This document shows positions 6,679-34,494 of a DNA stretch of 36,419 nt, piece by piece. The stretch is from an uncultured Nitrospira sp. (lineage in GTDB: Bacteria > Nitrospirota > Nitrospiria > Nitrospirales > Nitrospiraceae). The position numbers and the translations under genes are program-made. The stretch is taken from contig CABVRW010000037.1 of assembly GCA_902500785.1 (NCBI GenBank), forward strand, positions 1-36,419, given 5' to 3'. The notes under the pieces are model-generated. The model did no database searches. It worked only from the letters and a program-made list of their open reading frames with translations, and was not told where the DNA came from. Each line of letters starts with the position of its first letter. Positions within the stretch are counted from its first letter, which is position 1.

Positions 6679-6727
6679 ACGCTGCACTCCTTTTTCCAAA
6701 CTTGGTTCGTTTCAACGGGCTCATGGC

Positions 6728-6767
6728 ATTATAAACAATGCTCGCCCGTTATTGCGTCTGTTATAAT
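6728..6767. promoter_or_regulatory. Divergent promoter region with mirrored TATAAT elements
   Basis: A perfect -10 hexamer, TATAAT, occurs on the plus strand at 6762-6767 and on the minus strand at 6733-6728, in a 7-bp inverted repeat (ATTATAA/TTATAAT). The plus copy ends 7 nt before the ATG at 6775, so transcription could begin at that ATG. The minus copy lies about 50 bp upstream of the DsbA-like start. Neither has a convincing -35 box. Confidence 0.5.
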
Positions 6768-6774
6768 GCCAACG

Positions 6775-7329: not shown

Positions 7330-7508
7330 TCAAACTCCCGCCAACCCGGAGTTCCTTCGACAACATCCGCTCAGTTCTGGATAAATCTAGAGCAGCGCTA
7401 TGGATTGCGGGGCCGGAACAGGCTTGGGAGGAATTGGAAACCGAACCATTCCCTTGTGACCATGCCGAGTGGTACTCGAGCAAGGACTGCGCGGGGAGGG
7501 TGAGCGAA

Positions 7509-8099: not shown

Positions 8100-8126
8100 G
8101 GGATCCTCCTTGAAGTCAGGGCAACT

Positions 8127-8874
8127 TCAGGTTCCGACGGTTGGGGCATGGGTCTGACAACTCTCAACAAAGCTATCCACCTCTCTTTTCATCAATGCAT
8201 AACATTCGCAGGACTCCTTCTCGAGGTCCTTCCCGCGAAGGATGGTCACCCCGCCGCGGTGAGATCTGAGAAGTTTCAATCGTTCGAGACTCGACAGTGT
8301 ACTGGCGACCCCTGGACGTTGGGAGCCAATCATGTCGGCGAGGTATTCTTTCGTGAATTCGAGATCATCGGATTGACGACGGTCACGGGCGGTCAGGAGC
8401 CAGCGGCACAGCCGCTGTCGCATGGAATGAAAGCGATTACAGATCGCCGACTGGATGACTTGCGTGATGCGGACATGGGTATAACGCAAGAGGATGGCGG
8501 TAAGCACACGGGCTCTGCCATTGATCGGATCTACCGCTTCCTTAGGGAGCCCAGAGCGTCCCCCCGAGCTGCGTCACCGCTTGGTAGGGCTGGCTGGAGA
8601 CCCCTAACAGGATAGGAACCCCGACAAACCCTTCGAAGCCCACCATGCCGACCTCAACAGCCTGACCTGCGGCCGAGATGCCGATCAGCGAAATGAGGGC
8701 GGTGCGGGGGAAATAGACATGTCGAATAGAAGTTCCGACGCTATACAGAACCTCCCCGCGTTTGAAGGTCACAGGCTCAAGGTCGTCACGAAGGGCCGCG
8801 TAGGATCCTGCGTCCAGCGTGTTGAGGATACTGTTCTGGTCGGAGAGATGAACAGTGGCCATGGATGCTTTCAT
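8127..8874 (-). pseudogene. Crp/Fnr-family regulator interrupted by a frameshift
   Basis: Two adjacent frames make one regulator. 8874-8542 encodes the cyclic-nucleotide-binding-like sensor domain (110 codons, with R-H-V-Y-F-P and G-M-V-G-F-E-G), ending at an early TAA. 8507-8127, open upstream to about 8560 in a different frame, encodes the dimer helix and winged HTH (L-L-L/I-L-L-R-Y-type helix, C-N-R-F-H-S-M, R-P-G-V-A recognition helix and a terminal C-E-C-Y). Joining them needs a 1-nt skip or 2-nt insertion near 8545-8560, next to a run of six G. The fused product would be about 250 residues, the family norm. A TATAAT (minus, 8893-8888) precedes the start. It may be a real pseudogene, programmed frameshift or sequencing error. 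Confidence 0.8.
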
Positions 8875-16296: not shown

Positions 16297-16638
16297 CTAT
16301 CCCCTCGCGGGGACCGGCGGCGCGCGAGCGTGAAGGGACGAGGTGTCCCCGACGGAAAGGAATAGCGGAGGAGAGATCAACGTGAAGGATTGAGCAACCC
16401 ACGCCGCGCCCACATCTCCATGCGAGATCGGGCCGACATCGGTTGTGGCCTGACAGGCCCACGAACAGAGCGTGGAATGTGATTCCGTGCCTGAGTGCTG
16501 GTGATGACTCTCCGTCGGCGCGGCGTGGGCAAACGAACAACCAGGCGCCACGAGAGCCAGCGCCATATAGACACAGACAACCCCGAGTGCCAGAGCGGCG
16601 ACTGAGGTCTTGGAGGTACGTCGGTTCATAATCTGCAT
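16297..16638 (-). CDS. Small His-rich C-x-W-x-C protein, copy A
   Basis: A 113-residue secreted or membrane protein. It has a hydrophobic segment (about 11-34), a His-rich stretch (S-H-H-Q-H-S-G, S-H-S), then C-S-W-A-C. A second hydrophobic stretch and terminal A-R-A-P-P-V end it. The same order occurs in genes at 25724, 31441 and 34116. His plus paired Cys suggest a metal site, most likely copper, facing the periplasm; this is inference. The layout recalls DUF2946-type proteins. The start is uncertain (ATG 16638 or 16629); the longer frame uses TTG. Confidence 0.7.
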   Translation of the reverse strand: MQIMNRRTSKTSVAALALGVVCVYMALALVAPGCSFAHAAPTESHHQHSGTESHSTLCSWACQATTDVGPISHGDVGAAWVAQSFTLISPPLFLSVGDTSSLHARAPPVPARG

Positions 16639-16688
16639 GGTCTGATAGTTCTCAACTGTTCTACCATTTACGCTTTTCCTCAAAAGTT

Positions 16689-19214: not shown

Positions 19215-21476
19215 CTAAAATTTGTACTCCACCCCGCCGAACGCGCTGATGCCCAGTCCGGGGTTGGCAAATCGATTCAATTGATCGTTTACCACCACCG
19301 CCCCGGCGTAGGTTTTGTTGGTCAAATTGCGCCCTTCGGCAAAGAGCGTCCAATGCTCGTCGAGATACCATCCGGACCGCAGATTGACGAGAGCATAGGA
19401 CGGATTCTTGATCGTGTTGCTGTAGTCCGTATAGAACCCGGACAACGACCATTCGACGTTCGGCGCAATCCACCAGCCGGCCGGGTGATCGTACCGGACC
19501 TCCATGTTCAGACTATGTTCCGGCGCACCGGCGACCGTATTGCCGGCCTTGGCGATCAGCACGTTCGGCCCCACGCCTCCGCCGGCTCGCACGTCATCGG
19601 TAAACTTGAAGCGCGACCAGGTATAGGCCACACGCGTTTGCAGGCTGTCTTCCCGACCTGCCCCACCCTGTGCGAGCAGTCCCTTCTTCACGACCATTCC
19701 TGCGCCGGCCTCCACGCCGGTATGCCGCGTCCCATTGGCATTTTGGAACGTGCCCTGGTTGTTGATGATCGACGCGAGAATCTCTTTCTGCATTTCGAGA
19801 TTGTAGACCGTGACATCCCAGTTGTAGCGTCGATCGGCGGACGTTCCACGGTGTCCCAATTCCAATTGCCATGCGCGCTGCGCATCGAGGTTCAGGAAAC
19901 CCGTATTCGGCGTGCCGTTCGCATTCACCGATGAAAGGAGTTCAAGATTCAGCGGCGCCTCATAGGCTCTGCTCGCGTTGAAATACAACTGCGAGGTCGG
20001 CGTCGTCCGATAGACGAACCCGATCTTCGGATTGATCGCATCGAAATGTTGCAATGGCTTCTGCGTGCCGGTCGGCGTCGATGGCGTGGTGGGGTTGAAC
20101 GGGTTGCCGGCCGGGCCGAAGTTGTCCACCGTCGCCTGGCGTCCCGTGTAATCCCATCGGCCGCCGATCACGATCGTAAAATCCTTCGTGGCATCGAAGG
20201 CATCTTCGGCGTATGCTCCGAAATACGTCGTCTTGGCCGTATAATTCTGCGTCAGCGCTCCGATGCTCCCGTTATTGTTCACGAACCGCTGCTGACGTTG
20301 ATTGCCGTACCGCGGCTGAAATCCCATCACGAAGGAGTTGTTCTTCCCAAAGAGCGAATTGGAGTTCACATACCGAAACTCGCCGCCCACATTATTGTTC
20401 TCCTGCCTGATCGTCTGAAAAATAGGGTGGTCGATGTATTGATTCGAGAAGTAGGGAATGATCTCGAAGTATTGGTTGGGGGCGAACTCATTGTGGTAGG
20501 CAATTCCAATCCGCTGCAAATTATAGTACCGCCCGTAGTTGCACACCTGGTTGTTCAGATTGCAGGCAAAAAACGGAGGCGTTCCCGGAGGGCTTTGTCC
20601 CCCAACCTGTTGCCGATTTTGAAAGAGCTGGGTGTTGGTCAAGGAGCCGGGAATGCGCTCGGCGACATTCGCCTGCAGAAAGTAGGCCCTGATTTCCTGA
20701 TGATTGCCGAGTTGAATGCCGATGTTGGCATTGATGCGCTCGCGGGCTTGCTGACTGTTGTCCTGAAATCCGTCCTGCCGGTTGCCGGACACGCTGATGT
20801 AGTAATCCATCGTCGCGTTCATGCTGCCGACCTTGAACGGCTGCAGCACTTTGCCGCTGGACACCTGGCCGCTCACCAGGCCGAAGCTGCCGCCGAGCAT
20901 CCGCATCTGCAGGGTGGAGGCGCTATAGCCGGTGCGCGGCACGAAATTGATCGCTCCGCCGATGCTATTCGCGCCATACCGCAGGGCGTTCGCGCCTTTG
21001 TACACTTCGATGCGTTCGTAGGCCAGAAGGTCGATGGATTCGAAGTCCGAAAAGCCGTCGGCGTCGCCGAAGAAGATGCCGTTGATCAGGATGTTGATCC
21101 CGCGATGATGGAAATTATTGCGCAACGAGGTGCCGCGAATTTGAAACTGGCCCTCGTCCGCTCCAAAGCGCGACTGGAATCGCACGCCGGGCGCGAATTG
21201 CAGCACCTCTTGAAGATTGACGGCTGTCGTCTCCGTAATCTGCTTCTCCTCGATCAGGATGTTGCTGCCCGGTCTCCGCGCCAGTTCCTTCTTCACATCC
21301 TCAACATTTTCGATACGCTTCCCCTGCACCTCGACCGGATCAACCACCACGACAGGAACATCCTGGTCGGACGGTTCGTCGGCCGCACGCACGACAGACT
21401 GATCGATGCCCCCAACTAAGGCTGTGGCCAGACAGGCCACCCCTACTGCTCGTCTCCACAACTCCCCTGCCTTCAT
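19215..21476 (-). CDS. TonB-dependent outer-membrane receptor 1
   Basis: A 753-residue receptor. A signal peptide (about 1-31) and a Val-rich TonB-box-like segment (D-V-P-V-V-V-V) precede the plug domain (about 60-175, with Q-F-Q-I-R-G-T-S and G-A-N-A-L-R-Y-G-A-N-S-I-G-G-A-I-N). A 22-strand barrel follows, ending in Phe. One loop has a Cys pair, C-N-L-N-N-Q-V-C. Transport uses energy from the TonB complex; a tonB gene lies at 28285-29496. The ATG at 21476 has AAGGAG upstream. The substrate is unknown: most similar receptors carry iron or copper chelates. It is next to an amidohydrolase and an inactive S9-like protein. Confidence 0.93.
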   Translation of the reverse strand: MKAGELWRRAVGVACLATALVGGIDQSVVRAADEPSDQDVPVVVVDPVEVQGKRIENVEDVKKELARRPGSNILIEEKQITETTAVNLQEVLQFAPGVRFQSRFGADEGQFQIRGTSLRNNFHHRGINILINGIFFGDADGFSDFESIDLLAYERIEVYKGANALRYGANSIGGAINFVPRTGYSASTLQMRMLGGSFGLVSGQVSSGKVLQPFKVGSMNATMDYYISVSGNRQDGFQDNSQQARERINANIGIQLGNHQEIRAYFLQANVAERIPGSLTNTQLFQNRQQVGGQSPPGTPPFFACNLNNQVCNYGRYYNLQRIGIAYHNEFAPNQYFEIIPYFSNQYIDHPIFQTIRQENNNVGGEFRYVNSNSLFGKNNSFVMGFQPRYGNQRQQRFVNNNGSIGALTQNYTAKTTYFGAYAEDAFDATKDFTIVIGGRWDYTGRQATVDNFGPAGNPFNPTTPSTPTGTQKPLQHFDAINPKIGFVYRTTPTSQLYFNASRAYEAPLNLELLSSVNANGTPNTGFLNLDAQRAWQLELGHRGTSADRRYNWDVTVYNLEMQKEILASIINNQGTFQNANGTRHTGVEAGAGMVVKKGLLAQGGAGREDSLQTRVAYTWSRFKFTDDVRAGGGVGPNVLIAKAGNTVAGAPEHSLNMEVRYDHPAGWWIAPNVEWSLSGFYTDYSNTIKNPSYALVNLRSGWYLDEHWTLFAEGRNLTNKTYAGAVVVNDQLNRFANPGLGISAFGGVEYKF

Positions 21477-21547: not shown

Positions 21548-22957
21548 TCAGTGAGCGCGGTGCTCGCGCTCTGAGGAAACGGGCCCCGACCCGTCAAGGT
21601 GCTCCAGCGGCACCCCCTGCTTAAATCTGCGACGAATGGCCTGTACCTGATTGAAATCCTCGACGGGATTGCCGGCCAGCGCGAGAAAGCTGGCCTCATA
21701 GCCCTCCTCGAACCGCCCGATACGACGATCAGGGAAAATAGCGGCCGGAGTGGCTTCGCACCACATCTTGAGCAGCGCGAGATTATCGAAGAGATGGAAC
21801 GAATGCAGATGCATGATTTCCGCTAACGACGTGTCGGCATGGTCACTGCCGACCAGCAGTTGCACTCCCGCGTGATGGAGCAGGCCGAGATTGTCTATCA
21901 GAACCTGCTCCGCTGATTTTCCCGGCGCAGATTGGTGAGGATCGGCCGACTCCGCGGCATGCGCCCCGTCGTGATCATGCGGACGGTGCCCTGCCATGGA
22001 TGGCATGGCGCTTCCTGCCACGGCCGTGGTCACGACCCGCACGCGCCGTTCGAAGGCCATGCGCGCATCATCGTCCGTGAGTCTGGCACGCTCCGCATCA
22101 GTCGGGCTCTTCACCAGCCATCCGGGAACATGCGCAATCTCGTCGACGCCCGCACGAACCGCGTGGCGAAAGTCCGCCGCCGTTTCGACATGGGCTGTCA
22201 CCTGGAGCCCGGCCGCATGGGCCTTGGCGACGATGAGCGGCACCAATCGAGGATGCAGGCCGGTCCGTAACCGGCGCCCCGAAGCCTCTCTGCTCTCGTC
22301 CTCGTCTTCGGAGTGCACCACATACACCTTCACGAAATCGGGCCGACCACTCGTGATCAACGACCACTTCGCATCCAGGTCGGCCTCGGTCTCGATGACG
22401 ATATACGCGCGATTCTCAAACCACCCCCGCTCGACCGTTCCGATAACCGGTTCATACCGACTCACCCGCAGCACATCCTCATACAGCGCGATGGGGTGGC
22501 CGCCCTTCCCCGTGAGTCCGGCATGCGCGAAGGTTGCGTCGATGCTCGTCGGCCGATTCACGGCATTGCGAATCTGCAACGCGAAGTCCCTGACGTTGTT
22601 CGGGTTCTTCACGTAGAACACGCCGTCCGTGAGATACCGCTGCGACACCGTCTGAAGATTCCATGGGCCTTCGACGTTGTGATTGTGTGCTTCCCCGAAC
22701 GGCGGCAGCACGAAGAGGCCGGAGAGATCCACCGTCTCGATCCGACCCGGCGGCGGGGTACGCGTCAGGCGTCCCTGCGCCGAATACCACGTGGCCGATT
22801 GAAACCCTTGGCCATCAAACCACCGACCATTGATGAAAGCGTATTGCCTCACCTCCGATGGCCCCGCCGGGTGCGACGCCCCCGACGATGGAGACATGCC
22901 AGTCCCAGCTCCGCAGCCGGCCAGCAGCACAACCAGAACCCATGCCATACGACTCAT
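21548..22957 (-). CDS. Lipoprotein amidohydrolase with His-rich insertion
   Basis: A 469-residue metal-dependent hydrolase of the imidazolonepropionase-like amidohydrolase group. Lipobox L-L-A-G-C (Cys15) suggests outer-membrane anchoring. Metal ligands appear complete: H91-N-H93, Lys210, His256, His276 and Asp372 in G-S-D-H. Between the fourth and last ligands is a low-complexity insert (about 319-341) rich in His and Asp. The ATG at 22957 has GAGAGGAA upstream; upstream in-frame ATGs lack one. It precedes receptor 1 by 71 bp, consistent with one operon. It may process the receptor's ligand; substrate unknown. Confidence 0.88.
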   Translation of the reverse strand: MSRMAWVLVVLLAGCGAGTGMSPSSGASHPAGPSEVRQYAFINGRWFDGQGFQSATWYSAQGRLTRTPPPGRIETVDLSGLFVLPPFGEAHNHNVEGPWNLQTVSQRYLTDGVFYVKNPNNVRDFALQIRNAVNRPTSIDATFAHAGLTGKGGHPIALYEDVLRVSRYEPVIGTVERGWFENRAYIVIETEADLDAKWSLITSGRPDFVKVYVVHSEDEDESREASGRRLRTGLHPRLVPLIVAKAHAAGLQVTAHVETAADFRHAVRAGVDEIAHVPGWLVKSPTDAERARLTDDDARMAFERRVRVVTTAVAGSAMPSMAGHRPHDHDGAHAAESADPHQSAPGKSAEQVLIDNLGLLHHAGVQLLVGSDHADTSLAEIMHLHSFHLFDNLALLKMWCEATPAAIFPDRRIGRFEEGYEASFLALAGNPVEDFNQVQAIRRRFKQGVPLEHLDGSGPVSSEREHRAH

Positions 22958-23029
22958 CGTTCCTCTCCCACTCATGCAGAGCTGCACCGGCTTGGTCGCC
23001 GGTCATGTGCAGCCATTGCCAGGTACGTC

Positions 23030-23289: not shown

Positions 23290-25614
23290 CTAAAACAGTC
23301 CTAAGGTCACGCCGGCATAAATGGATCGGCCGTACCCGGCGAAGAACAGGGTCTTGTTCGCATCCGCCGTGCTATCCGCGACTACGTTGCCGGAGGCCGC
23401 ATATTTCTTGTCCGCAATATTGTCGATTTCCGCAAAGAACTTTGCGAATCGGATCCACTTATTATTGTGGAACTCAAAGTTCTTATGGATATTCAAGTTG
23501 GCAATCACAAAGGCGGGAATGCCCACGGTGTTGTTGTTGTTCAAGAAGTAGCTGTTCATATAGTTGACTTCCACCCAACCACCCCACCCGCTGCCGTTAT
23601 GATCGTAGGATTCCTTGAAATTGAACGTGTCGGTCGGCACGTTTGGAACGACTTTGCCGTCCCGCACGAATGCCGTCGGAAGACCGCCCGATAGAAACTG
23701 GTCGCTAAAATTGATGTAGCGCGCATCGATGTGGGTATACGCACCGGAGAATCGCAACCCGTCCAATGGCCGCCAGTCGTAGAACAATTCAATGCCCCGA
23801 TATTGCGAAGAGTCCGCATTGATCGCGGCCTGACCGCCGGTATTGGAGACCACCTGGCTGATGATTTCATCCTTCACGAACGTGACGAACCCGACCAACT
23901 GCACGGTCAACGTCTTGTGCAATCGGGACTCCGTTCCAAGTTCCACGTTGAGATTTTTCTGCGGCTTCAGATCGAAATTCGTTCCGGCCAGGCCGGTAAA
24001 AGGGTTGGTCAGAAGGTTGCTGAAGCCGGGAATGGCATACCCGGTAGAGGCCCGCACCCAATGGCGATACCCATCGGTCGGCTTCCAACTGATCGACATC
24101 TCCGGCGCCCAGTTACTGAAACTGCGTTCCGCCCCGGCTCGGCCGCTCACCGCTCCCGCCGTGTAGTTGATCGTCTGTACACTCAACTGTGATTGCTCGA
24201 AGCCGAGACCCGCAGCCAAGGTCCATTTCGGCAAAAACTCCAATTCCTCTCGAAACCGCCCGCCGATGTTTCGAATCGTTCCACGGCTATTCTGCGCCAA
24301 TGTTCCGCGCGTCCCGAAAAAGTCCTGGAGATTGTTGAAGGTCTGCCCTTCCTGCTCCATCTGATTCACGAAAAACCCGACGTAACTCCGCAACGGCATG
24401 TCGAACAGCCGTCCGTCATGACGTAAATCGGTGTAATGCTTGTAGTTCGGATTGATGTTGTCGGTGATCTGGGTGAAGGTCTGGTTGATGTCCTTCACGT
24501 CATAGTCGGCTTCCATCGTCAGGACGGTGTTGGCATCGATCTGCCGTTCATACATTCCACCGATGATGTTCCGTCGGTCCAATCGCCGTTGAGCGAGCAA
24601 CACGGCATTGGTCGCGTTGTTGATGCCGCCGGCCTGTCGATGGTCGGCGTTGAATTGATCGATGGTCAATCGGGTGGGGACTCGCGAATCCAGCCAGTTC
24701 GTGATGGCTTTGAAGTACAAGTTCTGTTTGTCGTCCACCTTCACCCGAAAATTAAAATTCATCGTTTGCGTGCTGTAGTCGCTGTGCCGAATAAATCCAT
24801 CCTCGGCGACGTGACTTCCGAACAACGAGATGTCCACGTTCGTAAATTGTTGGCCGACGGCGAACGCGTATTTCTGATAGCCGTACGATCCGCCGCTGAT
24901 GAAACTCTCCATGCCGTTAATGTCACTGCCGCGTCGGGTACGGAAGTGCACCATACCGCCGAGCGCGTAGTTGTCGTAGAGGGACGAGGAGGCGCCACGC
25001 GTGACCTCAACGCTCCGCATGAACCAGGGGTCATGAATATCCAAGCGCGACAACCCGTCGGATTGCGTCTGGATGAATCCGTCTTCGTACATCTTGATCT
25101 CACGCACCGCGAACGAGGTCTTTACACCCGAGCCACGGATCGAGATACTGAAATCCCTCGGACCATTGGCCTGGCGCAACACCACCCCTGGCAAGGACTC
25201 CATTGATTCTCTGAGCGTTCTGGTCGGCTGCGACTCAGTCTCCGACTGCTCGGTCGCCGACAGCGTGATGCCTTCCGGCCGACGCTGTACGCGATCGCTG
25301 ACGATGCTGACATCGGCTAGTTCGAAGTGCGGAATTGCCTCCTGCGCCTTCGACTCAGACGATTCCTTCACCACCGACGGCTGCGCCGGCGTCGCCGCCG
25401 CGCCCGCTGCCGGTTGCTGGTGCAACTCGTCCAATTCACGAAGGATGTTCTGCAGTTGATCTCTCAAGTCGCGCTCCCGTTCGCTTGTGTCGGCGACGGC
25501 TCCGGCCGCCGCCTCTTCCTGCGCATCCGCGCGGGATGCGGTGAAGGGTAGTACCATCACGATGCCGGACAACAACATTGAATAAATAATCGATGAATGC
25601 AGACGGGCCCACAT
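23290..25614 (-). CDS. TonB-dependent outer-membrane receptor 2 with N-terminal coiled coil
   Basis: A 774-residue receptor from the ATG at 25614 (AGGAGG upstream; upstream in-frame codons unlikely). The signal peptide (about 1-31) is followed by a charged helix with D-L-R-D-Q-L-Q-N-I-L-R-E-L-D-E-L (about 48-66), which looks like a coiled coil, then an Ala/Pro linker. The plug has S-L-P-G-V-V-L-R and I-S-I-R-G-S-G, and the barrel ends in Leu-Phe. Such N-terminal extensions are unusual for receptors and may mediate a protein contact. It is downstream of the copy B small protein and shares its signal and coil with the pseudogene at 27901-28240. Confidence 0.93.
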   Translation of the reverse strand: MWARLHSSIIYSMLLSGIVMVLPFTASRADAQEEAAAGAVADTSERERDLRDQLQNILRELDELHQQPAAGAAATPAQPSVVKESSESKAQEAIPHFELADVSIVSDRVQRRPEGITLSATEQSETESQPTRTLRESMESLPGVVLRQANGPRDFSISIRGSGVKTSFAVREIKMYEDGFIQTQSDGLSRLDIHDPWFMRSVEVTRGASSSLYDNYALGGMVHFRTRRGSDINGMESFISGGSYGYQKYAFAVGQQFTNVDISLFGSHVAEDGFIRHSDYSTQTMNFNFRVKVDDKQNLYFKAITNWLDSRVPTRLTIDQFNADHRQAGGINNATNAVLLAQRRLDRRNIIGGMYERQIDANTVLTMEADYDVKDINQTFTQITDNINPNYKHYTDLRHDGRLFDMPLRSYVGFFVNQMEQEGQTFNNLQDFFGTRGTLAQNSRGTIRNIGGRFREELEFLPKWTLAAGLGFEQSQLSVQTINYTAGAVSGRAGAERSFSNWAPEMSISWKPTDGYRHWVRASTGYAIPGFSNLLTNPFTGLAGTNFDLKPQKNLNVELGTESRLHKTLTVQLVGFVTFVKDEIISQVVSNTGGQAAINADSSQYRGIELFYDWRPLDGLRFSGAYTHIDARYINFSDQFLSGGLPTAFVRDGKVVPNVPTDTFNFKESYDHNGSGWGGWVEVNYMNSYFLNNNNTVGIPAFVIANLNIHKNFEFHNNKWIRFAKFFAEIDNIADKKYAASGNVVADSTADANKTLFFAGYGRSIYAGVTLGLF

Positions 25615-25723
25615 ACACTTCCTCCTGGCACACCTGTGCACATGACAGTACAGACACACCCCCGTCGTCCCTGTCAGAACGGACGGCAAGAGCGGCTAGC
25701 ACACCTAGCGATATGTTATGAAA

Positions 25724-26044
25724 TTATGATTGAACTGGCGGCGCGCGAGCGGCAGCGTGGAACTCCGCGCCGCCGGCGATGACGGTATGATCACTCTCGG
25801 CAAAGATTGTGACCACGAGAAACGGGTGCAGCACCAGCACGGAGGGCACGGCATCCGACGTAGGATTGACCTGACAGGCCCAGACACAGAAGCTGGAGTG
25901 GGACACCATCCCGCCATGGTGATGGCCGGTCGGCATCGGGTCGCCATGGTCGAACGCGCAGGCTATGGGAAAGACGGCCAGGGCAAGATAGATCCCTGCA
26001 AGCGCGGCCGCGAGCGCAACTGAGGGTGCCTTCATGCGGCTCAT
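25724..26044 (-). CDS. Small His-rich C-x-W-x-C protein, copy B
   Basis: A 106-residue protein. Hydrophobic segment about 9-28, then G-H-H-H-G-G and S-H-S-S, then C-V-W-A-C, a hydrophobic segment and A-A-R-A-P-P-V. The ATG overlaps the stop of the TlpA-like gene (ATGA at 26044-26041), so the two are translationally coupled. It lies just upstream of receptor 2. A periplasmic metal-binding partner of the thioredoxin or receptor is a reasonable guess. Confidence 0.8.
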   Translation of the reverse strand: MSRMKAPSVALAAALAGIYLALAVFPIACAFDHGDPMPTGHHHGGMVSHSSFCVWACQVNPTSDAVPSVLVLHPFLVVTIFAESDHTVIAGGAEFHAAARAPPVQS

Positions 26045-26577
26045 GGCATCAACCCCTGCAACGCAAGCACCGCGTTCGGAGCATCCCATTCACGCGGCCC
26101 GACCGCGCGACCCACCAAGGCGCCCTGCCCATCGATCACCACCGTGGTCGGCAAGGCGCGCACCAGATAGGCCTGCGAGACGTCCTGATGTTCGTCGAAT
26201 AGTACCGGGAGCTGCACGTTCAGGTTCGCCAGAAAATGTTTGATACCGTCCCGCTGCAAGTCAGTCGTGATGGTGAGCAACGCAAAGCGTTCGGGATCCA
26301 GTTTCTGCCGCAACCGCTCGAAGGCCGGCATTTCGTCCTTGCAGGGCCCGCACCAGGTGGCCCAGAAATTCACCACGACGACTTTTCCCTTCAACTCTGC
26401 GAGCTGAACCGACCGTCCATCCATGGACTGCAGATCGAAGGCTGCGGCGGCGGTTCCCGGTGCGACCCGGGCGATTTTCAATGCGGCGAACGGATCGTCC
26501 GCCTGTACAGGGCTCACGGTCGCGCCCAGCCCGACCGCCAGCATCAGCCCCCACACCCATGCTGCTCGCATCATCAT
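26041..26577 (-). CDS. TlpA-like periplasmic thioredoxin
   Basis: A 178-residue exported protein with signal peptide (1-26) and thioredoxin fold. W75-C76-G-P-C79-K is the active site, and L-P-T-T-V-V supplies the cis-Pro. The A-T-W-C-G-P-C-K context matches TlpA/ResA, which reduce cysteines of cytochromes or copper-site proteins. It is 21 bp downstream of a propeller protein containing C-x-C-C, a likely substrate, and overlaps copy B. Expected to act in the periplasm. Confidence 0.88.
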   Translation of the reverse strand: MMMRAAWVWGLMLAVGLGATVSPVQADDPFAALKIARVAPGTAAAAFDLQSMDGRSVQLAELKGKVVVVNFWATWCGPCKDEMPAFERLRQKLDPERFALLTITTDLQRDGIKHFLANLNVQLPVLFDEHQDVSQAYLVRALPTTVVIDGQGALVGRAVGPREWDAPNAVLALQGLMP

Positions 26578-26598: not shown

Positions 26599-27876
26599 TT
26601 ACCGAGCCGATTCATCCGCTACCTTCACCGATGGCACCGTCAACGTCTGCACCGCCAGCTTATACCCGGGCATGCCGTGCTCCACCCAGGCCAAGGCAAA
26701 CAGGCCCTGCCGATTGACTGCCACCACCGGAGTCTGGCTTTTTTTCTCGTTGACCTTCTGCGGCGCCGTAAACGTCTCTCCTCGATCCGTCGACAGGCTC
26801 ATCACCACGTCGCGTTTCACCGGCGCCTGCTCCTCCCACACCACCACGATCCGTCCCTCTGGATCCACCGCGATCTGCGGATGATCGGGAAACGTGTTTT
26901 TCGCGACGTTCAATTTGCGCTTGTCAGAGAAGGTCTTCCCGCCGTCGTCTGAATAAGCGATGTAGACGGCGGGAATTTCATCCGTCCCTTCGGTGTACCA
27001 GACCACGTAGAGCCGCCCCTGTCGATCGACTCCCATGGAGGCCGGACGATGCGGGCAGGCCGGGAACACCCACTGATCGTGCCCCACGATGACCGGTGTC
27101 TCGAACGTCTCCCCCTGATTCATCGAACGCGCCACAACCGTTTCGCGAACATTGCCTTCGAAAATCTTCCGCCAGGCCACATAGACCATGCCCTCGGGAC
27201 CGCTGGTCACCGCCGTGCGGCAGCAGACACAGGTGCCCTCGTCCACCTTGAGGTTCTTTGTGATCGTTACGCCTCGATCCAACGACCGGGCCGCATACGT
27301 ACCCGGCTCCTTTTTCCCCTCGCGTGCATCGATCCAGGAAAGGTGCAACCGGCCATCCGCATCACGATGCAACGCATCGAAGGTATGTTGAATCACACCC
27401 GGATCATCGTTCACCAGCACGGACGGCTGAAACGTCCGGCCGCCGTCGGTCGATCGGCTCAAGCGCAACTCCGTCGCAAGCGGTTGCTGCGGAGTCGCCC
27501 TGGAGTGGGTCAACCCCCAGGTGACAAAGACTTCGTCTCCATGCACTACCAGGGCGGGCGCTTCCTGTCTCCAATAGGGCACCTCTTCCGGCCGATTGAT
27601 GCGCACCGCCGATCCCATCGGCCCGCCCGGTTCCGTGCTACGGGCGTAAAGGACCGACCGCACATCCCTGTCCTCTTCCGTCCAGGCCAAGGAGACATGC
27701 CCCTGTTCATCAACCTGCACCGACGGACCGACCAGGCTCTTCACCTTATGGTCGGTCACGAATTTCTGGCCGAGCTCGAAGGGCCTGGTCGACTCGGCCT
27801 GGACAGCCGCCAATGGGAATGCCACAGCGAGGCACAGGGCCAACAGCCCGCCCATGCTTTTTTTAGACTGTCCCAT
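26599..27876 (-). CDS. Exported Asp-box beta-propeller with C-x-C-C-R motif, copy 1
   Basis: A 425-residue protein with signal peptide (1-27). Repeated Asp boxes (S-T-D-G-G-R-T-F, S-D-D-G-G-K-T-F, S-T-D-R-G-E-T-F) mark a sialidase-like propeller. It has C216-V-C-C219-R followed by A-W-R-K-I-F-E-G-N-V-R and A-C274-P-H276-R. The same motifs recur in 30035-31309. Sialidase catalytic residues (Arg triad, Tyr/Glu pair) are not evident, so a sialidase call would be misleading. Closely placed Cys and His suggest metal binding. The ATG at 27876 has AAAGGA upstream. It heads an operon with the TlpA-like and copy B genes. Confidence 0.82.
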   Translation of the reverse strand: MGQSKKSMGGLLALCLAVAFPLAAVQAESTRPFELGQKFVTDHKVKSLVGPSVQVDEQGHVSLAWTEEDRDVRSVLYARSTEPGGPMGSAVRINRPEEVPYWRQEAPALVVHGDEVFVTWGLTHSRATPQQPLATELRLSRSTDGGRTFQPSVLVNDDPGVIQHTFDALHRDADGRLHLSWIDAREGKKEPGTYAARSLDRGVTITKNLKVDEGTCVCCRTAVTSGPEGMVYVAWRKIFEGNVRETVVARSMNQGETFETPVIVGHDQWVFPACPHRPASMGVDRQGRLYVVWYTEGTDEIPAVYIAYSDDGGKTFSDKRKLNVAKNTFPDHPQIAVDPEGRIVVVWEEQAPVKRDVVMSLSTDRGETFTAPQKVNEKKSQTPVVAVNRQGLFALAWVEHGMPGYKLAVQTLTVPSVKVADESAR

Positions 27877-27900
27877 CAGGGTCCTTTCTTTCCCACCTTC

Positions 27901-28240
27901 ATTTTCCGGCTCCTCTGATGAAGAGATCGACGGCTCGTCCCCCTGGTCCCGGAGACCCCGCAACCCCCGGAACCGACTCCATGGCTTCCTTCCGCGTCCG
28001 GGTGGGCTGGTCGCTCAATTCCATCCTTGGCACACCGACGAACGGCGAACCCCGTTCGGCTGCTGTTTCAGTTGATTCAATTCCCGCAGAATGCGATCGC
28101 GATGTTTCTGAAGCTCCTCGACCCGCGGAGCCCGCTCAGAGTCAGGACCGACCGCCGACTTGTCCCCTGCCAATGAAATCCCACCGAAGATCGAGAGGCC
28201 ACGAATGGCCCAGTACCCACGAGAACCGGAATCATCATGT
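27901..28240 (-). pseudogene. Remnant of a third TonB-dependent receptor N-terminus
   Basis: Three frames together match receptor 2. First: M-M-I-P-V-L-V at 28238, matching the signal peptide. Second, frame 0 of 28140: S-E-R-A-P-R-V-E-E-L-Q and R-I-L-R-E-L-N-Q-L-K-Q-Q-P, matching the coiled coil, ending at TGA 28017-28015. Third, from 28018: Q-P-T-R-T-R-K-E-A-M-E-S-V-P-G-V and F-I-R-G-A-G-K, matching the start of the plug. The frame then ends where the propeller gene begins and the rest of the barrel is gone. At least two frameshifts and a large deletion are implied. It occupies the otherwise empty gap after tonB, where receptor 2 sits relative to copy B. Confidence 0.8.
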
Positions 28241-28284
28241 TCGCATCACCCAATAATGTCATGGCTGAAACACGCACCGCACGC

Positions 28285-29496
28285 CTAGCGATTTAAACTG
28301 TAACTGACCGGCAGATGCAGCACGATCATCGGAGCCGTCAGCTCATGCTTCATGTGCAAGGGACAGGCGCGCCGCACCGCTTCCATCGCCGCTTGATCGA
28401 GTGACTCGTGCCCGGAACTTTTCACCACTTCGACAGCCTTGAGTTGTCCGTCGTTGCGAATAGAGACCTTCAACACGACCTTGCCTTCCCAGCCGTTCAA
28501 ACGCGCGTGACTGGGATAATGCCGCAACTCAATGATGCGACGGTGCAACGATTCGGCCAGCCAGCCATAGTCGGTTTTCGTGGCAGGCCTCGGCGTAGCC
28601 ATGCGCGCCACGACTTGATGTTCCTGCAAGGTGGCCGGATCCGGCTGCGCCTCGGCAGGCGGTGCGGGTGGCGCAGCCACAGGCGCCACCGGAGCCGAAG
28701 AAGGGGCAATAGGCTCACTGACGGCGGCGACTGCTTCCATGGGCGGAGCCGGACTCGCTGGAGCCACTTCAGCCGCAGGAGCCGGAGGAGTCCGTTCAAC
28801 CACCGGATCGACCTGTACGACTTGGGGACTCGCAGTGACGACCGGTTCAGGCCTCGTCTCCATTTCCGATGGCTCACTGCCTACCGCCTGGGCCTGATAG
28901 GCCTGAGCCGTCACAGGCGCCGCCTCCACAACCGTCTGTTCGATCGTCGGAGCCGTTTCCCGCACCACTTCAGCCGGGGTCGCGGCCTGCATGACCGGCT
29001 TCGTCTCCTGAATCTCTTGCGGCTCGATGGGCTTGGCCTGCACCTGAACCACTTCTCTTGTGGGCTGTATCTGCTCTTGCGGTCGAACCGTTTCGACGAC
29101 CGGCTGCGGATCCCGCTGGACCGGCTGCACCACCCGTTCCACCGGTTGTATCGCCCGTTGAACCGGCTGAGGTTCCACCCGCGTTTCCACCTGGCGTTGG
29201 ACCGGCTGAGGGGGAGGCGGCACGGTCCGCACGGTCTCAACTCGTGGCTTCACCGGAGCCGGAGCGGGCGGTTGCACTTTCGGCGTGGGGGCCGGCTCTG
29301 CCTGAGGCACCACCTCATGTGGGGCCTCGACAAGGGCTACGTCCCATTTGAACGGCTCTTGCTCCACTATCATGGCCATCTTCGGCAAGAGACCGAATGC
29401 GGCAAGCACGAGGCAGGCATGCAGCAGAAGCGATGCGCCCCACCCTGTCATCGCCTGCCTGGGTTGCCACGATTGCGCCACGAACACAGTCTCCAT
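28285..29496 (-). CDS. tonB: Energy transducer TonB
   Basis: A 403-residue protein. It has an N-terminal cytoplasmic stretch, one membrane segment (about 20-40) and a very long Pro/Gln/Val-rich spacer (about 60-300). The TonB C-terminal domain (about 310-400) shows H-Y-P-S-H-A-R-L-N-G-W-E-G-K-V. The Pro-Val repeats reach across the periplasm to receptors. The ATG at 29496 has AAAGGGAG upstream; the longer frame does not. ExbB and ExbD are not in the window. It likely serves receptors 1 and 2, and once the lost receptor. Confidence 0.92.
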   Translation of the reverse strand: METVFVAQSWQPRQAMTGWGASLLLHACLVLAAFGLLPKMAMIVEQEPFKWDVALVEAPHEVVPQAEPAPTPKVQPPAPAPVKPRVETVRTVPPPPQPVQRQVETRVEPQPVQRAIQPVERVVQPVQRDPQPVVETVRPQEQIQPTREVVQVQAKPIEPQEIQETKPVMQAATPAEVVRETAPTIEQTVVEAAPVTAQAYQAQAVGSEPSEMETRPEPVVTASPQVVQVDPVVERTPPAPAAEVAPASPAPPMEAVAAVSEPIAPSSAPVAPVAAPPAPPAEAQPDPATLQEHQVVARMATPRPATKTDYGWLAESLHRRIIELRHYPSHARLNGWEGKVVLKVSIRNDGQLKAVEVVKSSGHESLDQAAMEAVRRACPLHMKHELTAPMIVLHLPVSYSLNR

Positions 29497-29530
29497 GAGA
29501 CACTCCCTTTCGAAACGATTCGTTCGACCC

Positions 29531-29989
29531 TTACTTGAAGACCACCTTGGACACCGACCCGATCGGCACCTCGACCTGACCGAAATCAGATTCACCTTTG
29601 AAACTGCCGTTCACCGCAGGCACAAACTCGCCGTTCTTACCGTTGGTCAACGTCACCGTCATGACCGGCGCAGCCTGGTCGGCGCCGGGCTTGACCTCGA
29701 TCTGTTTGATCTGGTCGAACTTGATATTGACCGTCGCCGTGCCGCGCTTCGACGGCAGATGCCGCAGCTCATGCGGGACGAACGAGGTCTCACTCATTTT
29801 TTCTTCCCAATAGAAGATGCCGTTCTTGAGCTCAGTTTCGACTCCCTGCTGGTCGGTCACCGCAATCGTGAAGGATTTCTCGGCCTTCCCGTCGGCAGCA
29901 GAAAGGCACGGCGCCCACAACAAGAGCGCCAGCCCCACAATCCCATACAGACCTATGCGTCTCACCAGCTGATCCACGTGCGTCTTCAT
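29531..29989 (-). CDS. Secreted protein upstream of tonB, unknown function
   Basis: A 152-residue exported protein with signal peptide (about 1-31, ending L-S-A-A). The mature domain is predicted to be mainly beta: F-T-I-A-V-T-D, A-T-V-N-I-K-F-D-Q-I-K-Q-I-E-V-K, M-T-V-T-L-T-N-G-K and a terminal V-S-K-V-V-F-K. No Cys or His cluster is present. GGGGAGGAG lies before the ATG. It is 34 bp upstream of tonB and probably in the same operon. I recognise no family. Confidence 0.75.
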   Translation of the reverse strand: MKTHVDQLVRRIGLYGIVGLALLLWAPCLSAADGKAEKSFTIAVTDQQGVETELKNGIFYWEEKMSETSFVPHELRHLPSKRGTATVNIKFDQIKQIEVKPGADQAAPVMTVTLTNGKNGEFVPAVNGSFKGESDFGQVEVPIGSVSKVVFK

Positions 29990-30034
29990 GACTCCTCCCC
30001 TTGCTCCCTTGTTGCTGGGAATCGCCGGACCGCG

Positions 30035-31309
30035 CTAGGGTTCCACCGCGCGCGACAATTGCCCCTGCTGGACCATAATTCTGTTGTGTGGAAAGGCATG
30101 TTCGGTCCAGCCGATCGCGACCTTGCCACTGTTATGGATGGCCACCGTCGGATGCTCGGCCTTGGAGCCGCTGCTCAACGTCTGCATCGCGCCGAATGTC
30201 TGCCCGCGATCGGTCGAGACCCGCATGACCACACGCTTTCGGACTCCCGTCACCTCTTCCCACACCGCCACGACCCGCCCGTCCGGATGGACCGCCATAT
30301 GGAGATTGTCCGGCAAAGAGGTTGTTGCGTGGTGCAGCGCCACCGGCGCGGAGAACGTCGCGCCCTGATCGTCCGACGTTGCGATGAAGAGGCGCGGCTG
30401 CTCATCCTTCCCCTCTGTATACCACCCTATATAGAGCCGTCCCCGGCCATCGAAGGCGATCGAGGGGCCGCGATGCGGACAGGCGTCGAAGACCCATCCG
30501 TCCCGGCTCACGACGGTCGGCGGGGAAAAGGTCCGACCCTGGTCGGTCGAGCGCGCAATCACGATGTCCCGCACATTGCCCTCGAACGTCTTGCGCCAAG
30601 CCACCCATAACGACCCATCCGGCGCCTCTGTGACCATCGGACGGCAGCAGGGACAGGCCATCCCGTCAATGACGACGTTCTTCTCGACTGTGATTCCATG
30701 GTCCCGCGAGCAGGCCAACATGACACCCGCGCCGCTGCGATCCTTATTCCGTCCGTCTAGCCAGGCGACGTACACCTCGCCGTTCTTGCCCGTGGAAACA
30801 TTCTCAAACGTATGCGAAATGGCCAACCCGTCGTCGTTGACCTGAACCGGCGCCTGGAATTTCGCTCTTTTGTCGGTAGATCGTGCCAGTTGGAGATCCG
30901 ATGCGAATAAGGCTCCGGGCTTCTTCACGGCCGTAGACCAGGTCACGAGCTGTTCGCCATCGGCCCCGATGGCGAAGCCCGGTGATTGATGAATGGCTTC
31001 CGGCCCGACACCGGAGGGATTGACCTGAACCTGGGCTGCCGCCGACCGATCATCCGGAACCAGGGCTGTCTTTACTTCCCCCTGCATCCCGCTTTTTTCA
31101 ATCCAAGCAGCGTACAACCGCCCGTCTTGATGAAACCGGAGAGCGGGCGGGGAGATGACCGTCGTGGCCTGGACAAGATTGAGCGGCGCTCCCAGTATCG
31201 TAACGGCCTGGAGTTCAGACTCGGCACAGGCGACGCCGCCGAAGACGACGAGAGGCAGCAGGGCCGCAGCACCACGCAAGGCAACGACGACATCACAAAC
31301 ACGAAGCAT
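30035..31309 (-). CDS. Exported Asp-box beta-propeller with C-x-C-C-R motif, copy 2
   Basis: A 424-residue paralogue of 26599-27876, with signal peptide (about 1-29). It has Asp boxes S-T-D-Q-G-R-T-F, S-D-D-Q-G-A-T-F and S-T-D-R-G-Q-T-F. The distinctive segment C219-P-C-C222-R, A-W-R-K-T-F-E-G-N-V-R-D and A-C277-P-H279-R is conserved at the same spacing. Such conservation across divergent sequence suggests a functional site, perhaps a metal. The ATG has AAGGA about 8 nt upstream. It is 45 bp upstream of the 29531-29989 gene and follows copy C. Confidence 0.85.
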   Translation of the reverse strand: MLRVCDVVVALRGAAALLPLVVFGGVACAESELQAVTILGAPLNLVQATTVISPPALRFHQDGRLYAAWIEKSGMQGEVKTALVPDDRSAAAQVQVNPSGVGPEAIHQSPGFAIGADGEQLVTWSTAVKKPGALFASDLQLARSTDKRAKFQAPVQVNDDGLAISHTFENVSTGKNGEVYVAWLDGRNKDRSGAGVMLACSRDHGITVEKNVVIDGMACPCCRPMVTEAPDGSLWVAWRKTFEGNVRDIVIARSTDQGRTFSPPTVVSRDGWVFDACPHRGPSIAFDGRGRLYIGWYTEGKDEQPRLFIATSDDQGATFSAPVALHHATTSLPDNLHMAVHPDGRVVAVWEEVTGVRKRVVMRVSTDRGQTFGAMQTLSSGSKAEHPTVAIHNSGKVAIGWTEHAFPHNRIMVQQGQLSRAVEP

Positions 31310-31440: not shown

Positions 31441-31746
31441 TTAGGAGTACACGGGTGGAGCGCGGGACCGACTGGGAGCGAGGAACTGGGGCAAAAGCAC
31501 CGAATCGGAGCGGAACGATACCTCGCCGGCCACGGTGAACAGGTGCATCGAGTGAACGGGGGTGACCACATGCACGCCGGCCGTTGCACACATCCAGGCA
31601 CAAATGCCCGATCCATGCATGCCGGCGTCATGGTGTGCCGTATGCTGGACTTCGTGCGCGACGGCAGAGCCTGTCGTCACGGCCAGCAACGCAATGATCG
31701 TACAGGCCACGACCCAGACGATGGTTCTAAAGGAGGTGCTTCGCAT
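31441..31746 (-). CDS. Small His-rich C-x-W-x-C protein, copy C
   Basis: A 101-residue protein. Signal or membrane segment about 9-30, then H-E-V-Q-H-T-A-H-H-D-A-G-M-H-G, C-A-W-M-C, a hydrophobic segment and R-S-R-A-P-P-V. It lies 131 bp upstream of propeller copy 2. No ribosome site is obvious at the ATG. Copies C and D share C-A-W-M-C-A-T and are closest to each other. Confidence 0.75.
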   Translation of the reverse strand: MRSTSFRTIVWVVACTIIALLAVTTGSAVAHEVQHTAHHDAGMHGSGICAWMCATAGVHVVTPVHSMHLFTVAGEVSFRSDSVLLPQFLAPSRSRAPPVYS

Positions 31747-31877: not shown

Positions 31878-32747
31878 TCACGGCGCGAAACCGGACGAGA
31901 GGTCGAAGGTCACGTCGACCTGTTCATCGTCCCTCAGCGTAACGGAATGGGTCCGCATTCCCAACAGCGGATGCCAGGCAATCAGGTCGTAGGACCCGGG
32001 CGGAACTCCATCAATAGCGAAGCTACCGTCCCGGCCGGTGATGGCAAAATATGGACTCTCCACGACATAGAGCCAATTCTGCATGAACTCATGCCGGTCA
32101 CAGCCGATCCTCACGATCTGGCTCTGTTTGAGATGTTGGGCTGTAAAGGTCTCCTCCATCGAGGAATGGGCCCGCAGGTCACGGTTGTGCAGGGTACGAT
32201 GGATACGCTTCTCTCGGCCGAATACGGCATAGGTATGGACGGTATGGGTCATCGGATCTTCGTTCACAAACTCCACCGCCGTCTCGGCCATCACCACTGC
32301 GGCATTCGGCCCGAAGTTACATCCCTTCGACCGGATCTCGAGAGCCGCCTCTCCGCCGGCCGCATAGGTGAATCTGCCGGCGCCCGGCGGGTCCCCGGCA
32401 TAGGAACGCGCTTGAAAGGGCTTCCCCTTGCGCACGTCTTCCAGCACGATGACCACCCCGCTCAGCAACCCCTCGCGAACGTCGACATCCGTCAAGACCC
32501 GTTCCTGACCGCAGATATCGGCATCTTTTTTGACCTCGAACCGGCGAGGTTCCGGAGCTGGACCCGCAAAAATGGCCGTCCCCGACACAGCGCCGCCGTG
32601 CACCACGTCCGCCACATCGTAGGCCCCGGCGAGGTCCACCGGGGCTATCAACAACGCGCATCCACAGAGCATGCCGGAAACCACAGACCTCACGGCCTCC
32701 ATATCCCACGGCCCATGACCGCCCGATGTGTTTTCATTCAGCATCAT
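31878..32747 (-). CDS. Exported cupredoxin-like protein with carboxypeptidase regulatory-like domain
   Basis: A 289-residue protein with a hydrophobic export segment near 22-42. Possible copper ligands are H168-T-V-H171 after N-E-D-P, and C216-D-R-H219-E-F-M222, a C-x2-H-x2-M loop like type 1 copper sites. A carboxypeptidase regulatory-like beta domain follows (about 226-285, with D-G-S-F-A-I-D-G-V-P-P-G). The start is the first of two ATGs after GAGGAGG, only 6 bp past the Met-rich barrel gene. A periplasmic copper carrier or electron-transfer role is plausible; the ligands need structural confirmation. Confidence 0.78.
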   Translation of the reverse strand: MMLNENTSGGHGPWDMEAVRSVVSGMLCGCALLIAPVDLAGAYDVADVVHGGAVSGTAIFAGPAPEPRRFEVKKDADICGQERVLTDVDVREGLLSGVVIVLEDVRKGKPFQARSYAGDPPGAGRFTYAAGGEAALEIRSKGCNFGPNAAVVMAETAVEFVNEDPMTHTVHTYAVFGREKRIHRTLHNRDLRAHSSMEETFTAQHLKQSQIVRIGCDRHEFMQNWLYVVESPYFAITGRDGSFAIDGVPPGSYDLIAWHPLLGMRTHSVTLRDDEQVDVTFDLSSGFAP

Positions 32748-32753
32748 CCCTCC

Positions 32754-33878
32754 TCAATGGACCACCTGCCAACCCGCATAGACGACCCAATCCGTTTCGA
32801 GCTGGGGACCATTCAGTCGCTGGTAGATCGGCATCCCGGCTTCCACCCCCAGCCGATTCTCAAGCCCCATGATTTCAGGAAAGAGCAGATTGAATCCCAC
32901 GAGAACATCGAGACGCCGGCCACCCTGGAGTGTCGGATCTACCGTCGGCACCATCTGCATAGCGGGATTGGCAAGGGCCAGGTCGCGCCCGCTGATATTG
33001 TCCCAATCCTGATAGTTGAGACGCACCGAGCTACTTACCCAATCCGCCCACTGGTAGGCCCCGTAGCCGGTCAGAAACCAGGAGTTCCCCAGCGAATAGT
33101 CCTCGCTGTTACGACCGGTGCGCGCGTTGTACATGAATTGCGCCCCCCACGAGACGGCTCCTGCAGATCCCTGATAGGTGATGCCGGGCAAGAAATCCAC
33201 CGTGCCAGACCCCAGTTGCATCGGATAGGGAAGGCGAACCGTGCCCTGCGGGGTGAGTCCTCGCTCCGTGATGCTGCCGGTCGGAATATTCAGTCCCAGG
33301 TTTAAGTGAAACCGATGAGAACCGATGCTCGGCGTTTCGATCGCGTACAACCGCACTAGACCAAAGAGCTGGACGTCGCCGACCCCGTTGGATTCCGTCG
33401 TAAAGGTCCCGCCGGGACGGGTCAGGTGGTCCATGGATTTAGTACTGTAGGGAACCATCGCCATTACGGTCACCGTGTCGGTCAGCCCATACATCGGCAT
33501 GAACATATGCATGTCCATCGCCATATTCGTGGGAGTCGCCATGAACCGCTGGAGTACGTCCGAATTGGCCAGCCGGTTGGTTCCGTTCCGCATTCCCTCC
33601 ATTGCCATGTGCATGTACCGGTACGTAAACATGAATTCGCCCTTGTTGTGCGTATGCTCTCCCACCATGCCGATCGGCCCATGCGCATCCGCTCGATCCG
33701 GCGCGTAGAAGTTTCCGACGATCACGTTCTCCCCACGTTCGGCCAGACGCTGCTCCAGCGGCGTCATGAGCCCGTCCAGCAACGCGGCGCCCGCCTGGCC
33801 ACATTGGAGTCCGCCGACCAGCATCCAGCAGGCCGCCACGACCATCCATTTCATCGCCGACTCCGTCATCATTCCCAT
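32754..33878 (-). CDS. Met/His-rich outer-membrane beta-barrel protein
   Basis: A 374-residue exported protein with signal peptide (about 1-30). The first part has very dense Met and His: Y-R-Y-M-H-M-A-M-E-G-M and M-A-M-D-M-H-M-F-M-P-M-Y. The rest has alternating strands as in MetA-pathway/phenol-degradation-like barrel proteins. Met-rich sequences bind Cu(I) in CopA/CusB-type proteins. Start choice: ATG 33878 follows an AAGGG; ATG 33854 follows GGAG and is nearly as good; the ATG at 33995 is unlikely. The cupredoxin-like gene follows by 6 bp. Probable role: copper passage across the outer membrane, inference. Confidence 0.8.
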   Translation of the reverse strand: MGMMTESAMKWMVVAACWMLVGGLQCGQAGAALLDGLMTPLEQRLAERGENVIVGNFYAPDRADAHGPIGMVGEHTHNKGEFMFTYRYMHMAMEGMRNGTNRLANSDVLQRFMATPTNMAMDMHMFMPMYGLTDTVTVMAMVPYSTKSMDHLTRPGGTFTTESNGVGDVQLFGLVRLYAIETPSIGSHRFHLNLGLNIPTGSITERGLTPQGTVRLPYPMQLGSGTVDFLPGITYQGSAGAVSWGAQFMYNARTGRNSEDYSLGNSWFLTGYGAYQWADWVSSSVRLNYQDWDNISGRDLALANPAMQMVPTVDPTLQGGRRLDVLVGFNLLFPEIMGLENRLGVEAGMPIYQRLNGPQLETDWVVYAGWQVVH

Positions 33879-34115
33879 CACCCCTACCCTTTCTATTCTA
33901 TGAATCCCGTTCCACACGTGGTCGACCGGAGGTTCCGCGTTGAGCAGAACGCCCGTGGTCCCATCGGACCCCATCCAAGCCCCATCGAGCGACACATCGA
34001 CGGTCCCGACGTGACCTCAATCGGGGCCATTCGGCGCGGAGGTCTCGACTAGCGGGCACGAACATGGGGAAACGATGGCTCGTCACCTGTTCAGACCGAC
34101 CACTGACAATGTGCG

Positions 34116-34424
34116 TTAGGAAGCGAACAGGGGCGGAGCGCGGGGATTCGACCGTCGTACGGAAAGAAAATGGAGAGGATCCTCGTGATGGTTCGGAGCG
34201 AGCCAGACGAGGAACGGATTGTAGATGAGATGCACCTCGGCGTGGTTGGCGACCGCTCCCGTGGCGCACATCCAGGCACAGATCCCGGTGCTGTGTGAAC
34301 CGGCCGTATGGTGCGAAGCATGCTCAAGGTCATGGGCGATGGCTACGCGCATCGCGCTGCCCGACATGAAGAGAAGCACCACCAGCAGGAAAGAGGTCGA
34401 TGATTTGAAGAGAACGCGTTTCAT
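34116..34424 (-). CDS. Small His-rich C-x-W-x-C protein, copy D
   Basis: A 102-residue protein. Signal or membrane segment about 9-30, then H-D-L-E-H-A-S-H-H-T-A-G-S-H-S, C-A-W-M-C-A-T, a hydrophobic segment, N-H-H-E and P-R-A-P-P-L. The ATG at 34424 has GTGGGA upstream; the longer frame starts with TTG. It lies upstream of the Met-rich barrel and cupredoxin-like genes, possibly opening that set. Confidence 0.78.
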   Translation of the reverse strand: MKRVLFKSSTSFLLVVLLFMSGSAMRVAIAHDLEHASHHTAGSHSTGICAWMCATGAVANHAEVHLIYNPFLVWLAPNHHEDPLHFLSVRRSNPRAPPLFAS

Positions 34425-34494
34425 GGTCCCACACCAAAAAAACCACGCTGCCAAATAACAGCGCTAGGGGACAACGAGCCACTCCGCAGGAGAT

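Follow-up and report, generated by a model that had tools for sequence, protein, structure and literature searches.

In a 36,419-nucleotide stretch of an uncultured Nitrospira genome (contig CABVRW010000037.1, here called the window), two reverse-strand genes, PropA and PropB, encode what we propose are secreted seven-bladed propellers of an undescribed copper-handling family. Each product carries four Cys residues that are invariant among its relatives, and in this genus the genes lie beside those for TonB, TonB-dependent receptors and a TlpA-type thioredoxin, and beside small leader open reading frames (ORFs) that resemble known copper sensors. The invariant Cys residues, the fold, the gene order and the leader ORFs come from computation; the identity of the metal, the thiol state, the convergence of the residues and the directions of transport and of regulation are inferred. 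In all probability these propellers deal with copper and do not cleave sugars, and they are very likely to be part of a copper system. The fuller proposal, that a secreted propeller with a Cys4 site is kept reduced by TlpA and serves TonB uptake under copper control, has a somewhat better than even chance of being right. The link to copper is drawn from gene context, most of the argument being carried by the leader ORFs and the TonB receptor, neither of which figured in a preliminary description of this DNA.

The 3.9 Mb genome holds only these two propeller genes of the kind, and their products are 39% identical across 389 residues. Read by eye, the N-terminus of each has a hydrophobic stretch like that of a signal peptide, and three clear copies of the S-x-D-x-G-x-T-F Asp-box are found in each. 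Inspection of the start of PropB shows that its probable ATG at 27876 is preceded by a good ribosome-binding sequence. The preliminary description had reported two divergent paralogues that keep a C-x-C-C-R and an A-C-P-H-R motif about 58 residues apart, and the spacing holds: from the first Cys of CxCC to the Cys of CP there are 58 residues in PropA, in PropB and in all 31 of the first relatives. The motif Cys residues are the only four in mature PropB; mature PropA has one extra (C200). Conservation was judged from an alignment and tree of 95 sequences that takes in Nitrospirota, Rhodobacterales and Methylomagnum, plasmid relatives included. In this alignment no sequence lacks any of the four Cys or the CP Pro, H193 of PropB is kept in 94, and the His of CPHR in 86, the other nine, which are the alphaproteobacterial type, having Val. 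Distant members differ at the A that precedes CP, at the R that follows CxCC, at the H and at the last R; distant Nitrospirota variants read CECCR ... CPHH, at a spacing of 54, or CTCCG ... CPVN, and the alphaproteobacterial type also has CPVN. The motif pair as first described is confirmed, with the refinement that on this alignment its invariant core is C-x-C-C ... C-P. Since the spacing of 58 and the five core residues are constant, the motif pair reflects conservation and not chance, and since Val replaces His in nine sequences, this His is not an obligatory ligand across the family, the fourth Cys being the invariant part.

In the tree, type A (CPCC, 22 sequences) and type B (CVCC/CICC, 61 sequences) form separate clades with a support of 0.99, so the duplication is old. 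The nearest relatives of the window belong to the same genus, and the matches in named genomes are Nitrospira, among them Candidatus Nitrospira defluvii and N. moscoviensis, both of which have the cassette described below. A scan of genome contigs with a pattern beginning (V/A)WEE(Q/L/V) returned Nitrospirota almost exclusively, the outgroup sequences coming from plasmids, and no propeller relatives were found in the viral contigs searched. A contig labelled uncultured Nitrosospira (isolate CMX; locus L116) bears a Nitrospira-type propeller, TlpA and receptor, and is likely to be mislabelled comammox Nitrospira. The PropB of one Nitrospira genome (G208; locus L063, 9909-10802, reverse strand) is a 298-residue frame with CPHR but without CxCC, and is probably truncated.

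AlphaFold2 models, made from input alignments of 34 rows for PropA and 46 for PropB, reached a predicted local distance difference test score of 91.0 and 92.9 and a predicted template modelling score of 0.91 and 0.92, respectively. Seven blades, with their a-strands, were counted in the secondary structure of both. In the VIA comparison the CylK propeller domain (Z 36) and PLL lectins (Z 28-29) headed the matches, followed by glycoside hydrolase family 145 (GH145) enzymes, virginiamycin B lyase, YncE and integrin alpha, all of which we take to be seven-bladed. Foldseek gave target template modelling scores of about 0.7 for PLL lectins against 0.36-0.61 for sialidases. A reading of PropA and PropB as genuine exo-alpha-sialidases could appeal to the BNR_2 and Asp-box matches in the propellers and to the names that relatives carry in databases, and the six-bladed enzymes of family GH33 (BNR/Asp-box) do share Asp-boxes and propeller blades with them. 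However, the models have seven blades rather than six, a search for an RIP string in PropA and PropB found no FRIP/YRIP motif, which in sialidases contains the first catalytic Arg, and the 37 positions conserved in at least 95% of the 95 relatives include no Tyr with which to form the catalytic Tyr/Glu pair; in place of these features there is the invariant Cys4 cluster. Profiles matched solved sialidases over short Asp-box stretches only. The earlier remark that sialidase catalytic residues are not seen is thus confirmed, the label is untenable, and sialidase activity is scarcely credible.

The nearest folds raise another possibility, namely that the protein is a lectin- or lyase-like propeller that serves the TonB receptor by recognizing a ligand, either a sugar or a copper chelate, the Cys residues only shaping the pocket. 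The PLL-type lectins, GH145 and CylK domain agree with it in blade number and in overall fold (VIA Z 28-36), and the conserved Arg and Asp of the top face, described below, resemble a ligand pocket. Identity to such folds is, however, 8-16% (8-14% for these three in the VIA comparison), there is no known functional relation, and folds of this type have many functions. Further, the gene contexts speak of copper and not of glycans, and the relative that does lie amid glycosidases and a sulfatase (locus L041) is one without the Cys residues. We regard this explanation as very improbable.

The positions of the conserved residues were read by aligning the blades on strand b of the predicted strands, with mature PropB numbering. 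H138 falls in blade 3, C190, C192 and C193 in blade 4, and C248 and H250 in blade 5, all six within the segment that joins strand d to strand a, where H138, C192 and H250 have an offset of 9 and C190 and C248 an offset of 7. By the usual propeller convention, this segment lies on the top face, next to the channel. Blades 3-5 also have D132, D157, E270 and the three invariant Arg R159, R210 and R218 on their top face, so that, Asp-box residues excepted, all the highly conserved Arg, Asp and Cys are gathered there, and the conserved positions of the bottom face are Gly and Asp-box residues; these face assignments follow a rough rule, and the strands to which it is applied are predicted ones. The blade register predicts that the four Cys and the His form one site at the top of blades 3-5. 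The convergence of Cys, Cys, Cys and His that the preliminary description proposed to look for in models is predicted by this shared register, the His not being required family-wide.

Such a Cys4 site, with the nearby His, would most likely bind Cu(I), and direct copper binding by the propellers is a probable prediction. Nitrous oxide reductase and thiocyanate dehydrogenase have copper sites on propellers, and these sites are His-based. They would be a precedent for copper at one propeller face, differing from the predicted site here, which would be Cys-based. A bolder alternative is that the four Cys form a multinuclear Cu(I) centre ringed by catalytic Arg and Asp, for example in an enzyme that strips or reduces copper from an imported chelate; we think this decidedly unlikely. 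If it were true, an enzyme would be hidden under the name sialidase in nitrifiers, methanotrophs and marine bacteria.

The order TonB, propeller, TlpA, leader ORF, TonB receptor recurs across Nitrospiraceae (the features of the window are listed in Table 1). Neighbours were counted on the same strand around 69 unique propellers away from contig edges, in loci chosen for the propeller, many of the genomes being close relatives. A TonB receptor lies within 6 kb of 62 of these, TonB within 6 kb of 59, a leader ORF within 3 kb of 66 and TlpA within 1.5 kb of 50. The divergent CECC-type propeller (locus L118) is directly preceded by a TonB receptor and directly followed by a CxxC thioredoxin-like protein, and the CPVN type in Nitrospirales is accompanied by a TonB receptor and by regulators of the FecI/FecR type. 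Three Nitrospirota relatives that lack the Cys residues (L034, L040, L041) serve as a small control; they sit amid other propellers, a sulfatase, glycosidases and a mechanosensitive channel, and no receptor, TlpA or leader ORF was found at these loci.

The preliminary description had noted a TlpA-like thioredoxin next to one propeller, and its gene is indeed directly downstream of PropB and has the same position in nearly all B cassettes. It matches the NCBIfam TlpA model (1.5e-31) below the cut-off of that equivalog, and has the WCxxC of the TlpA/ResA fold. TlpA reduces the copper-site Cys of Sco1 and CoxB before metallation (PMC9145763), and a TlpA-type thioredoxin adjoining a Cys-containing protein, here one with a predicted copper role, recalls that assembly. 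We propose by analogy that the thioredoxin keeps the propeller Cys reduced in the periplasm, the difference being that the candidate substrate is a propeller and not Sco or subunit II. The same adjacency could be read otherwise: the Cys residues might form redox-active or structural disulfides, such as a vicinal one in CxCC, that bind no metal and whose state is set by TlpA- or DsbA-type neighbours. The periplasm is oxidizing, a CxxC thioredoxin-like protein follows the CECC-type propeller, and two plasmid loci have DsbA/PDI-type neighbours. This reading, however, explains neither the copper loci around every lineage nor the conserved His and Arg cluster, and we judge it unlikely.

Four leader ORFs lie in the window, each with an exported-type N-terminus, a C-x3-C pair and, close to the C-terminal end, RAPP. 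With a profile of the group, five are found in the whole genome, and the fifth (locus L137, 5305-5730, forward strand), which retains RAPP and has lost one Cys of the pair (LCQWVQYH), precedes a TonB-dependent receptor gene (5790-8273) whose product has a carboxypeptidase-regulatory-like N-terminus. Among 230 candidates in the fetched Nitrospirota loci, the distance from C-x3-C to R[AG]PP is 41-44 residues in 226, and in an alignment of 17 rows with a mean identity of 25%, only C, C, R, P and P are invariant. Two leaders with this signature have been shown experimentally to respond to copper. CruR has CXXC and RAPP, and with it copper switches off a TonB receptor (PMC9426467); CutF has CxxxC and a Pro-rich end, and with it copper is needed for the production of a multicopper oxidase (PMC9973294). 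The two act oppositely, so that copper may either raise or lower expression here. The Bordetella cruR-crtA-bp2921 operon (PMC9426467, PMC12914433) likewise begins with a leader ORF for a small exported peptide that bears a Cys pair and RAPP, ahead of TonB-dependent receptor genes, and differs in its spacing (45) and in its partner, a PepSY_TM protein, where here there are propellers, TonB and TlpA; the main texts of the two papers mention no propeller or sialidase-like protein. CutF of Rhodobacter capsulatus is similarly exported and acts as a sensor while nascent, and it has C-x3-C and a C-terminus rich in proline. The leader ORFs are apparently a divergent group missed by Pfam that would make up a large copper-leader regulon in Nitrospira, and the propeller would partner a TonB/TonB-receptor pair headed by these putative sensors.

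Relatives on plasmids of Rhodobacterales and of the methanotroph Methylomagnum, about 20-28% identical and annotated as "sialidase family protein" or "exo-alpha-sialidase", provide contexts independent of Nitrospira. The search for the motif pair and inspection of its neighbours, proposed at the outset, was productive: all 11 plasmid loci that were read, in about four distinct layouts, have copper genes near a propeller that keeps the four Cys. These genes encode multicopper oxidase, copper-binding protein, plastocyanin/azurin, a CusA-type RND (resistance-nodulation-division) pump, P-type ATPase and CopC/CopD, and the Methylomagnum propeller adjoins CopC, ammonia/methane monooxygenase genes (amoCAB) and a TonB receptor. 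The metal or redox role first suspected behind the sialidase label thus gains a copper link from independent gene contexts in several lineages, copper binding itself being predicted. The plasmid loci also suggest that the propeller could bind copper for tolerance, by sequestering or buffering it or by handing it to oxidases or efflux, and not for acquisition. The Rhodobacterales relatives stand beside multicopper oxidases, CusA-type efflux and P-type ATPases, and the copper-dependent production of a detoxifying oxidase needs CutF, which shares the C-x3-C of the leaders (PMC9973294). Yet the constant partners in Nitrospirota, TonB and TonB-dependent receptors, are import machinery, and the Methylomagnum copy lies beside amoCAB, CopC and a TonB receptor. 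We therefore consider tolerance rather unlikely and lean towards acquisition in Nitrospira, with the propeller most likely acting as a periplasmic acceptor or deliverer of copper.

Several published observations are leads that may concern this family. In Thioalkalivibrio thiocyanoxidans, a "BNR repeat" gene beside an outer-membrane receptor is co-induced with copCD and thiocyanate dehydrogenase (PMC5744179), and the gene clusters that copper limitation induces in Nitrososphaera viennensis are drawn with a "sialidase" and DsbD among them (PMC7785015). In N. franklandianus a gene for a Ccd-type electron carrier adjoins two sialidase genes, whose products are interpreted as polymer enzymes (PMC12448741), and recent papers on ammonia-oxidizing archaea take such genes as extracellular-polymer enzymes (PMC12448741, PMC11561398).

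A number of points weigh against the proposal as a whole. First, the archaeal and Thioalkalivibrio proteins are likened to the Cys propellers by annotation and not by the Cys motif. Second, most of the proteobacterial contexts resemble copper tolerance rather than uptake. Third, the invariant Cys4 is the sole direct hint of copper binding, and the predicted convergence of Cys and His comes from the blade register alone. Fourth, the leader ORFs fall below the Pfam DUF2946 cut-off (the best scores 21.0 bits against 23.7, and the others have no match), for which reason we call them CruR/CutF-like and not members, and their Cys pair is C-x3-C as in CutF, not CxxC as in CruR. Finally, the intergenic RNA folds are ordinary (z -0.7, 0.2 and 1.3); no structure stands out, and a stem-loop over the start of the next gene, as used by CutF in the service of a multicopper oxidase, is not supported.

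Table 1. Features of the propeller cassettes and leader ORFs in the window (all on the reverse strand)
Feature	Position	Strand	Basis or remark
PropA, predicted secreted seven-bladed propeller, CPCCR ... CPHR type	30035..31309	-	424-residue ORF; BNR_2 Pfam 4.9e-18
CPCCR motif of PropA (C219, C221, C222)	30641..30655	-	translation; Cys 95/95 in relatives
CPHR motif of PropA (C277, H279)	30470..30481	-	translation; C and P 95/95, H 86/95
PropB, CVCCR ... CPHR type	26599..27963	-	454-residue ORF; likely start ATG at 27876
CVCCR motif of PropB (ORF residues C245, C247, C248)	27217..27231	-	translation; alignment of relatives
CPHR motif of PropB (C303, H305, ORF numbering)	27046..27057	-	translation; alignment of relatives
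GVIQHTFD of PropB, with H193	27376..27399	-	kept 94/95; same blade position as Cys motifs
TlpA-like thioredoxin (WCGPC), candidate reductant of the Cys site	26041..26577	-	AhpC-TSA/Redoxin 1.8e-25
TonB-dependent receptor 1 of the cassette	23290..25689	-	Plug and beta-barrel Pfam; conserved beside propeller
TonB protein, likely start ATG 29496	28285..29595	-	TonB_C 1.3e-16
Small predicted-secreted protein, conserved after PropA in the genus	29531..29989	-	ORF; gene order
TonB-dependent receptor 2, after amidohydrolase-like gene (21548-22987)	19215..21476	-	order conserved
CruR/CutF-like leader ORF (ICAWMC ... RAPP) before 32754-33995	34116..34454	-	
CruR/CutF-like leader ORF (ICAWMC ... RAPP) before PropA	31441..31746	-	DUF2946 E 5.8e-4, below cut-off
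CruR/CutF-like leader ORF (FCVWAC ... RAPP) before TonB receptor	25724..26089	-	
CruR/CutF-like leader ORF (LCSWAC ... RAPP)	16297..16683	-	

Some further genes of the window, all on the reverse strand, may be mentioned. The cassette receptor is nearest to PqqU in NCBIfam, below the cut-off. A cytochrome P460 gene (14952-15656) is downstream of the fourth leader ORF of Table 1, and a methylamine-utilization-like gene (31878-32747) and an outer-membrane-like gene (32754-33995) lie behind the first and are present in few relatives (L106). A P-type ATPase (3060-5939) has several N-terminal YHS domains, HMBD repeats and TRASH-like matches, which is unusual for a copper/heavy-metal ATPase.

A search of the open-access literature, with subscription journals outside its scope, found no description of such a Cys-propeller family. 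As far as this literature shows, the operon of copper leader and TonB receptor is known, and what is new is the Cys-cluster seven-bladed propeller as its constant partner. The acquisition and delivery of copper in nitrifiers and methanotrophs are poorly understood, although their key enzymes are copper-dependent. The Cys propellers offer a concrete candidate, with four mutable residues and, ahead of the gene, a copper switch of a kind already published. They are also a caution that the name "sialidase" may be mistaken in nitrifiers and on marine copper-resistance plasmids.

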